A stretch of DNA of 43,186 nt, taken from contig JAWABU010000013.1 of NCBI GenBank assembly GCA_038884455.1, positions 1-43,186 on the forward strand, read 5' to 3'. A model generated the notes under the pieces. The model ran no database searches and was not told the DNA's origin. It saw nothing but the letters and a program-made list of their open reading frames with translations. Position 1 is the stretch's first letter; every line of letters starts with the position of its first letter. A program made the position numbers and the translations under genes. Positions 30,722 through 41,880 of the stretch are shown piece by piece. The DNA is from Candidatus Thermoplasmatota archaeon (lineage in GTDB: Archaea > Thermoplasmatota > E2 > DHVEG-1).

Positions 30722-30777
30722 CTCTCACAACCAGCAAGAGTTAATTATAAAAACCAGGATATGATTTGATACATACA

Positions 30778-32688
30778 ATGGAACCTGTATGCTCTAACAC
30801 CCGTATTCTTCTCCTATCAATGCCATATGCTCAAATCGACATACCCAGCATACAACTACCCCTACTCAAAACATATCTTCAGCAAAGAAACATACCAGTT
30901 CACACACAACATCTGTACCTCAAAGCAGCAGAAATCTACGGCTTATCCTCCTACCTTTCACTCATCACACCACCCCATACACCATACACCTCTCAAATGA
31001 TTTTTACCAAATACCTATTCCCTGATCACTGGTCCGTCACAAAAGATCAAATACAACAAAAATACGAACAACAAAACGCTATAAAAAAAGACCAACAAAA
31101 CAATCTAACCTTTGATGATTACGAACAACGAACCGATCAATTCTACCACTGGACTCTCAACAACATTAGCTGGCAAAACTATGATCTCATTGGTTTTACC
31201 GTAAACTACGGTCAACTTCTCCCCTCGCTAGCACTAGCACATACCATCAAACAACGATGGCCTGATAAAAAAATCATCCTCGGCGGGAGCAGGACAACAG
31301 CAGATCTCGGCATCGGAATCCTTAAAGCATTTCCTTTTATTGACTATGCTGTTTCTGGAGATGGAGAAGAGGCACTCTACCAACTTGCTACAGCACAGCC
31401 AGAAAACACAATCCCTGGTTTAATCTACCGCTCCAACAACACCGTCGTATCAAACTCCATGCAAACAACACTTGACCTCAACACACTCCCCATACCAGAC
31501 TACACAGATTTTTACCACGACATCTCCCAGGTAACCGATGATATCGCCTGCTATTTCCTCTACCATGGCAAACTCCCTGTTGAAATATCACGAGGCTGCC
31601 AATGGAACAAATGCACCTTCTGCAACCTAGCATTCCAGCATAAAAACTACCGAGAAAAAAAAACAGAACGAATCATCGAAGAAATACAGACGCTATCACA
31701 AACCTATCAAATGCTCCAATTTCACCTCATCGGAAACACACTGCCGAAAGAAAACCTCCACCTGCTCGTAGAAAAACTCAAACCCCTCAACCTGTTCTTC
31801 TTTGCAGAAGCACGGGCAGACCAACTCACCCGCGACGACTACACCTTACTCAAAGAAGCAGGATTCAACACAATCCAAACAGGAATCGAGTCATTCAGCA
31901 AACACTACCTCAAAAAAATGAACAAAGGAACCCGCGTCATCGACAACATCGCAGCACTCAAATACTGTCAAGAAAACCACATCACCAACCTCTACAACCT
32001 CATAATCCACTACCCAAACGAAGACCGTCAAGACTACGAAGAAACCAAAAAAATCGTTGAAAAAATACAAACCTATCTTGACCCGCCGCAACTCGCTGAA
32101 CTTTGCATCCTCTACGGAAGTAAAATCTACCAGCACCCAGAACAATTCAACATCCAAAAACTCGAACCAACAAGCCACGACACCCTCATGTTCCCACCAG
32201 ACATACTCAAAAACAATTTTTCCTTTGTCTACACCGCTACACCAATAATTCCAAACCCGCCACAAAACGACTGGGACAACCTTATCACCACGTGGAATAA
32301 CCATGCCCATCAACGAAAAGAAAAAATCAATACCAGTACCAATCCGTTTAGCCGGTATGTTTTTTACTATGTAGATGTTCATTCATTTCTCAAGATATAT
32401 GACCATCGCGACCCAAAATTTTTCAAATACTATGTCCTTGAAAACATAGAGAGAGATATTTTTCTCACCTGTACCACAATCACAAGCCTTACTGAACTTC
32501 ACGACAAATACCCAACACTTCCGGACTACGAACTCGCAGCGATACTTAATACATTCGAACAGCAAGACCTCCTCTACCACGAAGACAATTACTACCTATC
32601 ATTACCTTTAGATTTCATGAAACTCAACCACCGGACAAGACCACAACCTACAAAACAACCAGGCCTGCTCCTCGCGACACCTGCTTAA
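30778..32688 (+). CDS. Cobalamin-binding-type radical SAM protein, RiPP-maturation-like
   Basis: This protein of about 636 residues has an N-terminal Rossmann region as in B12-dependent radical SAM enzymes: ILLLSMPYAQIDIPSIQLPLL, then IGFTVNYGQLLPSLALAHTI, KKIILGGSRTTADLG and YAVSGDGEEAL. The radical SAM domain follows at about 265, with the cluster motif SRGCQWNKCTFCNL. The spacing is C-x4-C-x2-C instead of C-x3-C-x2-C. The order of segments, including a C-terminal NLIIHYPNEDRQDYEET and a PPQ-x-x-x-L-C-I-L-Y-G-S stretch, resembles the RiPP-maturation radical SAM C-methyltransferase group. I see no precursor peptide gene next to it. The ATG at 30778 is preferred over a TTG at 30766; a TATA-like TTAATTATAAAAA lies about 30 bases upstream, only 20 bases beyond the insertion sequence. 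Confidence 0.75.
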   Translation: MEPVCSNTRILLLSMPYAQIDIPSIQLPLLKTYLQQRNIPVHTQHLYLKAAEIYGLSSYLSLITPPHTPYTSQMIFTKYLFPDHWSVTKDQIQQKYEQQNAIKKDQQNNLTFDDYEQRTDQFYHWTLNNISWQNYDLIGFTVNYGQLLPSLALAHTIKQRWPDKKIILGGSRTTADLGIGILKAFPFIDYAVSGDGEEALYQLATAQPENTIPGLIYRSNNTVVSNSMQTTLDLNTLPIPDYTDFYHDISQVTDDIACYFLYHGKLPVEISRGCQWNKCTFCNLAFQHKNYREKKTERIIEEIQTLSQTYQMLQFHLIGNTLPKENLHLLVEKLKPLNLFFFAEARADQLTRDDYTLLKEAGFNTIQTGIESFSKHYLKKMNKGTRVIDNIAALKYCQENHITNLYNLIIHYPNEDRQDYEETKKIVEKIQTYLDPPQLAELCILYGSKIYQHPEQFNIQKLEPTSHDTLMFPPDILKNNFSFVYTATPIIPNPPQNDWDNLITTWNNHAHQRKEKINTSTNPFSRYVFYYVDVHSFLKIYDHRDPKFFKYYVLENIERDIFLTCTTITSLTELHDKYPTLPDYELAAILNTFEQQDLLYHEDNYYLSLPLDFMKLNHRTRPQPTKQPGLLLATPA

Positions 32689-37383: not shown

Positions 37384-38067
37384 TCAACTCATCTTCTTTT
37401 TCTCATACAGACTTCGCGCCCAGTAGACAAACGGGGTATCGCAAACACCAATAACAACTTTCATGATCATCGACGTGCTAAAAATCTGAAGGATAATCTC
37501 TGGTGAAAACACACCAACAAATGCAAGTACGGTAAACATACTCGTATCAATACTCTGACTCAGAAACGTTGAAAAATTATTTCTAAACCACAAATATCTT
37601 CGGCGATGTCTATCTTTCAACTTCGCAAAAAGATACACATCAAGAGTTTGCGACACGAGATACGCAGTTAAACTTGCAAAGGTAATACGAGGCAAAAACA
37701 CAAACAGCGCAGAAAGATGATCACTGACAAAATCAGATTCATCAGGAATAAATGTAATCGTCATCTGCATCAATACGGTCACACAGATCAAAACAAAAAA
37801 ACCAATCAAAACTGCTTTCTGCGCCTCTTTTTTTGAATAATTTTCTGTAAGAATATCTGTCGTTAAAAACAACGACGAATACACTACATTCCCAAGCGCG
37901 GTAACCATCCCAAAAATCTCAACAGTTTTCATCACCTCAATATTTGCAACAATAACAACAACTGCCATCCAAACAAATAAACCATTTTTACCAAACAACC
38001 GATAGGCAGCAATCACCATACAGAAACAGAGAAGAATCGACCCAATCCACAACAACTCGTTGATCAT
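37384..38067 (-). CDS. YhhQ/VUT-family queuosine-precursor transporter
   Basis: This 227-residue protein with about six membrane helices has the YhhQ pattern: NIEVMKTVEIFGMVTALGNV, then FLTTDILTENYSKKEAQKAV in the first third. SLTAYLVSQTLDVYLFAKLK and FLSQSIDTSMFTVLAFVGVF follow in the second half. YhhQ/QrtT proteins import 7-deazaguanine precursors (preQ0, preQ1 or queuine). The gene is divergent from a bacterial-type tgt across only 44 bases, which supports the assignment. The ATG at 38067 has no Shine-Dalgarno site and a TATA-like box about 25-32 bases upstream, so the mRNA is probably leaderless. Confidence 0.88.
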   Translation of the reverse strand: MINELLWIGSILLCFCMVIAAYRLFGKNGLFVWMAVVVIVANIEVMKTVEIFGMVTALGNVVYSSLFLTTDILTENYSKKEAQKAVLIGFFVLICVTVLMQMTITFIPDESDFVSDHLSALFVFLPRITFASLTAYLVSQTLDVYLFAKLKDRHRRRYLWFRNNFSTFLSQSIDTSMFTVLAFVGVFSPEIILQIFSTSMIMKVVIGVCDTPFVYWARSLYEKKKMS

Positions 38068-38111
38068 CCACAGACGAAAATATTTATTTTACTTATATTT
38101 TTCTCCTCAGC
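38068..38111. promoter_or_regulatory. Bidirectional promoter of the transporter/tgt pair
   Basis: This 44-base AT-rich spacer separates the two divergent start codons. TATTTATT at about 38081-38088 lies 24-31 bases before the tgt ATG. On the other strand, AATATAAG (about 38092-38099 in window coordinates) lies 25-32 bases before the transporter ATG. Both positions predict transcription starting at or beside the start codons. The two TATA boxes are so close that both promoters may compete or share a regulator. Confidence 0.55.
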
Positions 38112-39305
38112 ATGGGTTTCTTACAGTTCACAGTCAAAGCAACAGATGGCAACGCCAGAACCGGCATCCTTCGCCTTCACCATGGAACCGTCCACACACC
38201 AGAACTCATACCAGTTGCAACCAAAGCAACTGTCAAAGCACTCTCAGTTGATGATCTCAATGAAATCGGAGCACAAATCCTCATCTGCAACACCTACCAT
38301 CTCATGCTGCAACCTGGAGCAGATATCATCGCAGATCATGGTGGCCTGCATCGTTTCATGAACTGGAATAAACCACTCATCACCGACAGCGGTGGATTCC
38401 AAGCATTCTCCCTAGGTTTAGGCAAAGAACATGCTGTTGGCAAACTCTTTTTTCCCGGCGAAGAATATACCCACAGCAAGCCGTCTGGTAAATCAATCGT
38501 CACCATCACAGATACAGGGATACACTTTCGATCAATTTACGACAATTCACGACAATTTTTGTCACCTGAAAAATCAATAAAAATCCAAGAAAAACTCGGT
38601 GCAGACATGATTTTAGCTTTAGACGAATGCACCTCGCCACTATCGTCAAAAACATACACTGCACAAAGCCTTCACCGGACCCATCAATGGGCACAGACAT
38701 GCCTCAACACACATACCACGAAACAGGCACTCATCGGCATCGTCCAAGGTGGACACTGGAAAGACCTTCGTCTCAGCAGTGTTCATCATCTCGTTTCACT
38801 CCCCTTTGACGGATACGCAATCGGCGGTTCTCTTGGAAAATCAAAAAAAGATATGTACCGAATTCTCAACTGGGTTACTCCAAATCTACCTGAAGACAAA
38901 CCACGACATCTCCTCGGCATCGGCGTCGTTGAAGATATCTTTGAATCAGTTGAACGAGGTATTGATCTGTTTGACTGCGTATCACCAACTCGAATGGCAC
39001 GGAGTGGTTTTGTCTCTTTGACGCCACCCCTTGGAACCAAAACCAACAAATATCGACTGCAACTTGCATCATCAAAATACCGTAACGATAAACAACCGCT
39101 CGACCCCCACTGCACCTGCAAAGTATGTGCCTCATATTCTCGAGCGTATCTCCATCATCTCTTCAAAACCCAAGAACTACTAAGTTTTCATCTCCTCAGT
39201 TACCACAACCTCTATTTCATGCTCAACCTCATGCGTGACATCCGAGAAGCAATCAACACTGGTACATACCAACAGCTGAAAAAAACATGGATAAAAATCA
39301 AATAG
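38112..39305 (+). CDS. tgt: Bacterial-type tRNA-guanine (queuine) transglycosylase
   Basis: This 397-residue TIM-barrel enzyme exchanges guanine 34 of GUN-anticodon tRNAs for a 7-deazaguanine. It has RTGILRLHHGTVHTP, LITDSGGFQAFSLG with the catalytic Asp 92, and LIGIVQGGHWKDLR. The GIDLFDCVSPTRMARSG segment (283-299) includes the nucleophilic Asp. The zinc site is HCTCKVC (Cys 334, 336, 339) plus His 365. It lacks the C-terminal PUA-type domains of archaeosine TGT (ArcTGT), which has about 500-650 residues and modifies G15. The substrate-selective loop reads GGSLGKSKKDM, which differs from the GGLAVGE of model bacterial enzymes. It is paired with the YhhQ transporter and overlaps, or is 23 bases from, the PIN gene. 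Confidence 0.92.
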   Translation: MGFLQFTVKATDGNARTGILRLHHGTVHTPELIPVATKATVKALSVDDLNEIGAQILICNTYHLMLQPGADIIADHGGLHRFMNWNKPLITDSGGFQAFSLGLGKEHAVGKLFFPGEEYTHSKPSGKSIVTITDTGIHFRSIYDNSRQFLSPEKSIKIQEKLGADMILALDECTSPLSSKTYTAQSLHRTHQWAQTCLNTHTTKQALIGIVQGGHWKDLRLSSVHHLVSLPFDGYAIGGSLGKSKKDMYRILNWVTPNLPEDKPRHLLGIGVVEDIFESVERGIDLFDCVSPTRMARSGFVSLTPPLGTKTNKYRLQLASSKYRNDKQPLDPHCTCKVCASYSRAYLHHLFKTQELLSFHLLSYHNLYFMLNLMRDIREAINTGTYQQLKKTWIKIK

Positions 39306-39328
39306 CGATACTGGATAAAAGGTCTCAT

Positions 39329-39910
39329 ATGAAAGTAACTTGCCCGCGATGCAGCAGAAGAGTCACCCTCCAAGGAAGAAAAAACAGGGTATGTGCTTGT
39401 GGTGAGCTGCTCAACTATCGACATTTTTTACATGAAAAAATCACCTACGATGTGTACCTTGCTGACGCAAATGTGTTGATCTACGCGTTTGAGAAAAGAA
39501 GCCACCAGCGACGGTATTGTTACACTGTTGTCATGCTCCGATCTCCATCCATAGTAATCGCAACAACACAACACATCATTGACGAGGTAGGTCCTGTTAT
39601 TCAACAGTATCTCCCAGCAACATTTCTGGTTTATACCGTCCGAAAAATTCCTCCTGAACTCCAAGAAATTAAAACCAATGTTTTTAAACAACCATCACTC
39701 TCTGATTTCTCCTTGATACAAGCAGCCTGTGAACATCCTGAAGTCAAAGGAATTATCACCTATGATCGTGATTTTGGTCGAATTGCAACCTCAGGTTTTA
39801 TAGAGAAAAAATCCTCGGTGAAGTTTTGGTTAGGCGATGCTCAAGAATTTATAGAAAAACATAGGATCGCCATCAAACGCCAGGATGAACATCTAAGATA
39901 TGACCAATAA
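39329..39910 (+). CDS. PIN-domain nuclease with N-terminal zinc ribbon
   Basis: This protein of about 193 residues starts with a small zinc ribbon (MKVTCPRC, then VCACG near residue 20). A PIN domain follows with the usual acidic residues: DANVLIYAFEK, IIDEV, LSDFSLI and ITYDRDFGRI. PIN proteins are metal-dependent RNases. In the archaeal rRNA nuclease Nob1 the ribbon follows the PIN domain; here the order is reversed. A longer frame starts at an ATG at 39287, inside the end of tgt. The ATG at 39329 begins directly at the ribbon, with AAAGGT seven bases ahead. No antitoxin gene accompanies it, and the link to tgt suggests RNA processing. Confidence 0.72.
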   Translation: MKVTCPRCSRRVTLQGRKNRVCACGELLNYRHFLHEKITYDVYLADANVLIYAFEKRSHQRRYCYTVVMLRSPSIVIATTQHIIDEVGPVIQQYLPATFLVYTVRKIPPELQEIKTNVFKQPSLSDFSLIQAACEHPEVKGIITYDRDFGRIATSGFIEKKSSVKFWLGDAQEFIEKHRIAIKRQDEHLRYDQ

Positions 39911-40375: not shown

Positions 40376-41122
40376 ATGAGAAACAACCTCGTTGAAAAAC
40401 TTGCTAACAAAAAAACGTTCACCATAGAAGATGCACAAAAAACAAGTTCTATCAACAAAGCAGTCCTCAGAGTAATTCTCTCCCGGCTTCAGAAACAAGG
40501 ATACATCGAACGCATAGAAAAAGGAAAATACATGATCATCCCGCTTGGAGCCAAAAAAGGAGCCTACACCCTAGATGAATTTGTCATCGGTTCCCTACTG
40601 GTTACTCCCAGTATTGTTGCCTATTGGTCAGCATTACACTATCACGGACTTACTGAACAAATCCCACGTACCGTCTTCCTTCAAACAACCGCCCGAAAGA
40701 AAAAACAAGAGATCATCATCTTTGGCGTCACCTACAAAATCGTACGAATCAAAAAAGAAAAAATCTTCGGAACTGAATATGCCTGGTTCGAAGATAAAAA
40801 AATCACTATCACCGATAAAGAAAAAACCATTATCGACTGCCTTGACAAACCGCACTATAGCGGCGGCATCATCGAAGTAGCAAAAGCACTCAAAACGCAA
40901 GACTACGACACACAAAAGCTTTCTGTCTACGTACAGCAGTTAAAAAACACGGCAGTTCTCCGAAGGCTCGGTTACCTCTGTGATACATTACATATATCGA
41001 TACCATTGCCAACAATACAAACAAGAAACTACGTGATGCTTGACCCAACACAACCAAAAACAACTACTACTCATAAGAAATGGAGACTTATCATAAACGA
41101 AGATATCGAGGTATTGGAATGA
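40376..41122 (+). CDS. AbiEi-family antitoxin/transcriptional regulator (type IV TA)
   Basis: This 248-residue protein has an N-terminal winged helix (about 1-65, TIEDAQKTSSINKAVLRVIL, then GYIERIEKGKYMIIP). An AbiEi-like domain follows: SIVAYWSALHYHGLTEQIP, then VFLQTTARKKK, ITDKEKTIIDCLDKPHYSGG and a helical C-terminus. In abortive-infection AbiE systems this protein represses the operon and counters the nucleotidyltransferase toxin without forming a stable complex. Its stop overlaps the toxin ATG by 4 bases (ATGA). A large palindrome ends just before its start. Confidence 0.85.
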   Translation: MRNNLVEKLANKKTFTIEDAQKTSSINKAVLRVILSRLQKQGYIERIEKGKYMIIPLGAKKGAYTLDEFVIGSLLVTPSIVAYWSALHYHGLTEQIPRTVFLQTTARKKKQEIIIFGVTYKIVRIKKEKIFGTEYAWFEDKKITITDKEKTIIDCLDKPHYSGGIIEVAKALKTQDYDTQKLSVYVQQLKNTAVLRRLGYLCDTLHISIPLPTIQTRNYVMLDPTQPKTTTTHKKWRLIINEDIEVLE

Positions 41123-41880
41123 TCCCTGAGAATGAAATCAAAGCATTCGCACGTACCTTCGAAATACCAGCGAGCACAATTGAACGAGACTACGCACAAA
41201 ACTGGTTACTTGCGTTTCTTCCTACAATGGCGTTGAAGGGGGGAACCGGATTACAAAAATGCTACTTCAAAAATTATCGATTCTCTGATGATCTTGACTT
41301 CACGCTTCTCGAACCTGTACCCCTAGAAAAGATGAAAAAACAAATCAATGACACCATCAACAAAGTAAAAAACGAAGCAGGTATCAACTTCTCACAACAA
41401 ATAGAAACAGAAGAAGTAGAAAACGGCTATCTCTTCGTTGTCTACTTTCGAATACTTAGAAAAACAGGTGATCCTCTCAAGATAAAACTCGATATCACGA
41501 AAAAAGAAAACGAATGCATTATGACACCGGTACAACAAAAGACCATTCTCCAAACATATTCCGATAGATTGGATATACGAACAACAGTCTATTCTTTAGA
41601 AGAAATGTTCGCGGAAAAAACTAGAGCACTCTTCGAACGAACACGGCCCCGGGATCTCTACGATGTTTGGTACCTTCGTAAGAACACAACATTCGATTCA
41701 GAACTGTTCAAAAAGAAATGTGAGTTCAGACATCTTACCTTAGATATCAATGACATAATTTCCAGAAAGCAAAAATTTGAAAACGCTTGGAAAAACTCAC
41801 TGCAACACCAAATGAAAAATTTACCAAATGTAAAAATGGTGTTCGATGACGTGGTTCTATTTCTAAGGAAATATATCTGA
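41119..41880 (+). CDS. AbiEii-family nucleotidyltransferase toxin
   Basis: This 253-residue protein matches the AbiEii/AbiGii group of the DNA polymerase beta-like nucleotidyltransferases. It has LKGGTGLQKCYF, FSDDLDFTLLE (the Asp-x-Asp metal site), KIKLDIT with the third carboxylate, and EEMFAEKTRALFERTRPRDLYDVWYL, the conserved Lys and Arg-Asp-Leu-Tyr-Asp region. Studied relatives add nucleotides to tRNA or bind GTP and halt growth during phage infection. The frame opens at 41080, but the ATG at 41119 overlaps the antitoxin stop as ATGA and gives the standard coupled arrangement. Confidence 0.88.
   Translation: MIPENEIKAFARTFEIPASTIERDYAQNWLLAFLPTMALKGGTGLQKCYFKNYRFSDDLDFTLLEPVPLEKMKKQINDTINKVKNEAGINFSQQIETEEVENGYLFVVYFRILRKTGDPLKIKLDITKKENECIMTPVQQKTILQTYSDRLDIRTTVYSLEEMFAEKTRALFERTRPRDLYDVWYLRKNTTFDSELFKKKCEFRHLTLDINDIISRKQKFENAWKNSLQHQMKNLPNVKMVFDDVVLFLRKYI

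Follow-up and report, generated by a model that had tools for sequence, protein, structure and literature searches.

A 43,186-nucleotide stretch of archaeal DNA (referred to here as the window) carries a transporter gene and a gene for a bacterial-type tRNA-guanine transglycosylase (bTGT) that probably form a horizontally acquired, two-gene module for direct queuine salvage, serving tRNA position 34. The transporter (QPTR, of the YhhQ type) would bring a preformed 7-deazaguanine into the cell, with queuine as the most likely base, and the bTGT would swap this base for G34 in tRNA-Asp, tRNA-Asn, tRNA-His, and tRNA-Tyr in one step; neither QueA nor QueG/QueH would be needed for queuosine (Q) at position 34. 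Endogenous preQ0 would be used separately, by the archaeal TGT (ArcTGT) and then ArcS, for archaeosine at position 15. The first-pass annotation of this DNA had read the locus as one for queuosine salvage, and our analysis supported that interpretation; the modification itself is predicted from sequence.

The locus and its host

The annotation had described a YhhQ transporter gene divergent from a bacterial-type TGT gene. Profile scores confirmed both genes (Table 1), and the 44-base gap reported between them is exact. The spacer presumably holds putative back-to-back promoters; an Rfam search of the window detected no preQ1 riboswitch or other Rfam RNA.

TABLE 1 Features of the transporter-TGT locus (positions in the window)a
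Feature	Position	Strand	Remarks
YhhQ/QPTR (COG1738), predicted 7-deazaguanine transporter	37384..38067	-	227 aa; PF02592 and TIGR00697 above curated cutoffs
Divergent intergenic spacer, AT-rich	38068..38111	.	44 bp, start codon to start codon
Bacterial-type tRNA-guanine(34) transglycosylase	38112..39305	+	397 aa; TIGR00430, AlphaFold2 model, trees
Asp92 (TDSGG)	38385..38387	+	Equivalent of general acid/base Asp102; invariant in two alignments
Insertion of ~30 residues after FSL (residues 102-132)	38415..38507	+	Low model confidence; common to related bacterial TGTs
Substrate-pocket loop GGSLGKSKKDM (residues 238-248)	38823..38855	+	Without Glu235; one residue shorter than GGLAVGE type
Asp288 (FDCVSPTR)	38973..38975	+	Equivalent of nucleophile Asp280; invariant in two alignments
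Zinc site C334, C336, C339, H365 (C-x-C-x2-C...H)	39111..39206	+	Alignment

a Equivalences follow Z. mobilis numbering (e.g., Asp92 as the equivalent of Asp102).

The host assembly (G000; 1.7 Mb in 61 contigs; completeness, 97.9%) is archaeal, and GatE and GatD, which are archaea specific, adjoin the transporter-TGT pair, in agreement with the archaeal host named earlier. This sediment archaeon is a relative of the Thermoprofundales/MBG-D: the metagenome-assembled genome (MAG) "Thermoplasmatales archaeon SG8-52-3," whose TGT contig is common to assembly G027 of the same family, is among the Thermoprofundales (MBG-D) (PMC6461988).

Several other genes were observed in the window. A 207-aa open reading frame (ORF; 39287-39910, +) overlaps the 3' end of tgt by 19 bases; by eye, it has an N-terminal zinc-ribbon-like part (CxxC...CxC) and is otherwise PIN-like, it had no match in Pfam and NCBIfam searches, and it was not seen beside the pair in the other carriers. 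Further downstream of tgt lies an AbiEi/AbiEii-type toxin-antitoxin pair (40376-41880, +). A B12-binding radical SAM protein is encoded at 30766-32688 (+) and scored above the cutoff of TIGR03975, a model of RiPP-maturation C-methyltransferases.

The TGT is of the bacterial type

The TGT matched PF01702 (445 bits) and the G34 TGT model TIGR00430 (461.8 bits; cutoff, 306.75), while its score against the ArcTGT model TIGR00432 was just 147.7 bits (cutoff, 350). The domain search returned PF01702 alone, with no PUA or TGT_C2 domain, and a careful tree separated the TGTs of this kind from ArcTGT with support of 100/100, although the base of its bTGT part was without resolution. Membership in ArcTGT was rejected on these three grounds (i.e., profile score, absence of C2/PUA, and exclusion in the tree). 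The earlier description of a bacterial-type enzyme with a zinc site and no PUA extension is thereby upheld, as is the expected placement outside ArcTGT. Of its wider label, "bacterial/eukaryotic-type," the bacterial part stands, the nearest sampled kin being from a bacterial phylum of small genomes; the trees held no eukaryotic sequences.

An AlphaFold2 model gave a confident TGT fold (mean pLDDT, 91.5), with pLDDT values below 50 confined to residues 115 to 122, inside the insertion. The closest solved structures were those of Z. mobilis TGT (TM-score, 0.88 by query and 0.94 by target). In an alignment of 34 bTGTs, D92, D171, Q212, D288, and H365 were invariant, and the zinc cysteines C334, C336, and C339 were at least 90% conserved. 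From these sequence features, the enzyme is predicted to act at G34.

The pair is conserved and was probably acquired by transfer

Among 79 genomes searched, four from three genera (G000, G019, G027, and G034) carried a bTGT of this kind, and in all four a divergent QPTR gene lay beside it across a partly conserved spacer of 44 to 46 bp. Amino acid identities among the carriers were 70 to 72% for the TGT and 60 to 65% for YhhQ. The recurrence of the same divergent pair in four genomes indicates that the arrangement is not due to chance. Because the flanks differ between genera, this recurrence also indicates that the pair is a real unit of archaeal chromosomes and moved as a pair.

The genes are bacterial in kind and the assembly is in 61 contigs, as would be expected if bacterial DNA had been binned into an archaeal MAG. 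However, GatD and GatE adjoin the pair, four assemblies contain it, and the G034 contig that carries it is 1.8 Mb long, with archaeal secY and the genes for adenylate kinase (adk) and CMP kinase (cmk) close by. Given this context in four assemblies, contamination was rejected, and we consider the probability of an artifact negligible.

The nearest sampled TGTs belong to a phylum of small genomes (0.5 to 2 Mb), by inference the Patescibacteria. One of them (L149) is 51% identical to the window TGT, with which it shares the insertion, and its loop reads GGSLGKTKKDM; another (L159; 43% identity) has the same insertion and a GGSLGQ loop, and its tgt is overlapped by a QPTR gene. Overlapping QPTR and tgt genes were seen in one bacterial genome, G127. 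In a quick tree, the four archaeal TGTs grouped with 21 TGTs from small-genome bacteria and one from Woesearchaeota (26 in total; SH-aLRT, 95). No QPTR was detectable in the three nearest bacterial genomes (G135, G098, and G117). The simplest reading of these sequence relationships is that the pair was gained by transfer from small-genome bacteria; both donor and direction are inferred. A single origin of all Thermoplasmata bTGTs was mildly rejected (AU test, P = 0.037, for a group named after the first tree). The Woesearchaeota bTGT (L039:3998-5128) has a short loop, GSIFGDPK, and its genome yielded no QueA, no QPTR, and no strong QueC match.

The host genome encodes archaeosine enzymes separately from the pair

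Gene content was established from targeted searches and selected stretches of the genome. Besides the bTGT, G000 encodes ArcTGT as a separate gene (546 bits; cutoff, 350), ArcS (503.5 bits; cutoff, 440), and QueC. Archaeosine synthesis therefore needs neither window gene, and the bTGT is an additional enzyme. A search of 45 family members returned no QueA, and neither QueH nor QueF was found in the four carriers. The genome check proposed in the first-pass annotation was thus carried through for ArcTGT, ArcS, and QueC (found) and for QueA, QueH, and QueF (not found). Assembly gaps are an unlikely cause, since the same genes are missing in four carriers, and with no QueA, QueH, or QueF found, the building of Q on tRNA from preQ1 is not expected. 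With respect to direct salvage, G000 has the TGT and the QPTR, and of the Q-building enzymes, QueA and QueH were searched for and not found.

The transporter groups with a tgt-linked bacterial QPTR

The transporter matched PF02592 (162 bits; cutoff, 27) and TIGR00697 (212.6 bits; cutoff, 50.95); its score against the Escherichia coli-type model PRK11212 (55.8) was far below the cutoff (252), and a structure search found no solved-structure relatives. It is therefore a member of the TIGR00697 family, for which Q-precursor transport is predicted. In the tree, it paired with the QPTR of bacterial genome G127, whose gene is linked to tgt (support, 99/99; long branches), and the other QPTRs from its archaeal family fell elsewhere.

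QPTRs are also encoded by bTGT-less archaea of this family or class (L115 to L117, L119 to L122, and L125); they form a group separate from the window QPTR and may import preQ0 for archaeosine synthesis. Such a role has been proposed for archaeal QPTRs (PMC5372724), and this proposal, together with the presence of QPTRs without bTGT in other family members, would fit a scenario in which the window transporter feeds the archaeosine pathway with preQ0 and the neighboring TGT is unrelated or decaying. We regard that scenario as very unlikely: the bTGT-less QPTRs form their own group, the pair with its short spacer is kept while the flanks change, G000 has its own QueC, and the catalytic residues of the TGT are intact.

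The substrate loop and the choice of base

In the studied preQ1 enzymes, Glu235 is kept. The first-pass annotation had set the pocket loop apart from the GGLAVGE of preQ1 enzymes, and correctly so: Val233 and Glu235 are both replaced, with GGSLGKS in place of the preQ1-type GG(L)(A/S)VGE. Absence of the preQ1-type loop makes a preQ1 enzyme less likely and leaves the assignment as a G34 TGT unaffected. Imported preQ1 could be the final modification at G34, as in Bartonella henselae, for which preQ1 at G34 has been reported in trace amounts (PMC11570991). The failure to find QueA and QueH in the carriers agrees with this alternative; with both loop residues replaced, however, we consider it, and preQ1 as the base, quite unlikely.

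The loops of preQ1 enzymes read GGLAVG, and those of queuine-using TGTs typically read GG[LS][AS]G (PMC11570991). The GGSLG of the window TGT fits four of the five positions of the latter motif and has Gly at the Val233 position; its fourth residue is Leu, as opposed to Ala or Ser. Cys158 is bacterial-like. Considering this Leu, Cys158, and the loss of Glu235, the pocket is not a known queuine pocket.

QueA occurred in 0 of 13 bacterial genomes with short-loop TGTs (GGSLGK type, no Glu235) versus 45 of 77 others (Fisher P = 9e-5). After correction for relatedness (five supported tree pairs; median P = 0.5), this association was not significant and is unconfirmed, since the tree offers too few independent pairs. 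We accordingly rejected the idea that loop type cleanly predicts QueA throughout the phylum, in which many other loop types occur. The TGT pocket loops of these bacteria (L189 to L248) are highly diverse (e.g., GGVANGGE, GGWPLD, and GGELQEKG), which suggests several undescribed substrate preferences.

The base had earlier been left open among queuine, preQ1, and preQ0. Queuine is favored by the gene content and by the Gly in place of Val233, and we take it to be the likely base; the loss of Glu235 leaves room for preQ0. In the latter case, the TGT would insert the cell's own preQ0 at G34, giving preQ0-34 or, via ArcS, archaeosine, and the transporter would top up preQ0. QueC and ArcS are present in the cell, and QueF was not found; Glu235, which hydrogen bonds the pocket peptide in preQ1-bound Z. 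mobilis TGT, is missing from the window loop and likewise from ArcTGT, a preQ0 enzyme. Against this, no strong QueC match was obtained in 11 searched of the 13 short-loop bacterial genomes, so endogenous preQ0 is unlikely in those 11; a conserved transporter would be superfluous; and the Gly suggests a larger base. We judge insertion of preQ0 at G34 to be unlikely, and wobble-position archaeosine, in which ArcS would convert preQ0 inserted by the Glu235-less TGT so that four anticodons carry archaeosine/preQ0, to be very unlikely.

A second queA-tgt system in the class

Two other families of the class, f7 and f10, include 15 genomes in which a shorter bTGT with a canonical GGLCIGE-type loop is encoded directly after QueA. 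This bTGT branch is separate from the window enzyme in the trees. QueF and QueH were each present in 9 of 10 tested genomes, and QueC was also present. Since these genes mostly accompany queA-tgt, a complete de novo queuosine pathway is predicted for those genomes. In L249 (2992-5514), and likewise in L250, L251, and L252, a cysteine-rich protein of ~180 aa with no Pfam match, queA, and tgt form a conserved arrangement.

Comparison with known systems and implications

In Chlamydia, a TGT and a transporter without QueA constitute direct queuine salvage (PMC11570991). The window locus resembles that of Chlamydia trachomatis in pairing a transporter with a TGT, with neither QueA nor QueH found for the building of Q on tRNA, and in having Gly at the Val233 position. 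Unlike C. trachomatis, the host is an archaeon with its own preQ0/archaeosine pathway, and the TGT has a loop one residue shorter, without Glu235, and a ~30-residue insertion. The small-genome bacterial TGTs (L149/L159) share the insertion and loop type, but their hosts are bacterial and show no strong QueC match. ArcTGT (TgtA) shares the TGT catalytic domain and the lack of Glu235 but also contains C2 and PUA domains, modifies G15 using preQ0, and is ~24% identical.

Bacterial Q genes in archaea are already known: complete or partial Q pathways have been reported from 34 archaeal genomes, and in DPANN the genes for QueA, QueH, and Tgt are colocalized (Castelle et al. 2021; PMC8204110). The window shares a bacterial-type Tgt with these pathways of DPANN and some Euryarchaeota; unlike those loci, in which Tgt accompanies QueA and QueH, it has a transporter, and neither QueA nor QueH was found. 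In the open-access literature searched, we found no report of an archaeon that has a QPTR-bTGT pair but no QueA.

In the usual account, 7-deazaguanines occur only at position 15 in archaea and only at position 34 in bacteria and eukaryotes. The present genome encodes both position-15 machinery and predicted position-34 machinery, plus a transporter. Its TGT belongs to a group with a pocket unlike those of the enzymes studied so far, whether they use preQ1, queuine, or preQ0. The pair points to an exchange of genes between archaea and small bacteria that are probably symbiotic, and this uncultured archaeon may need other community members to supply an anticodon base.
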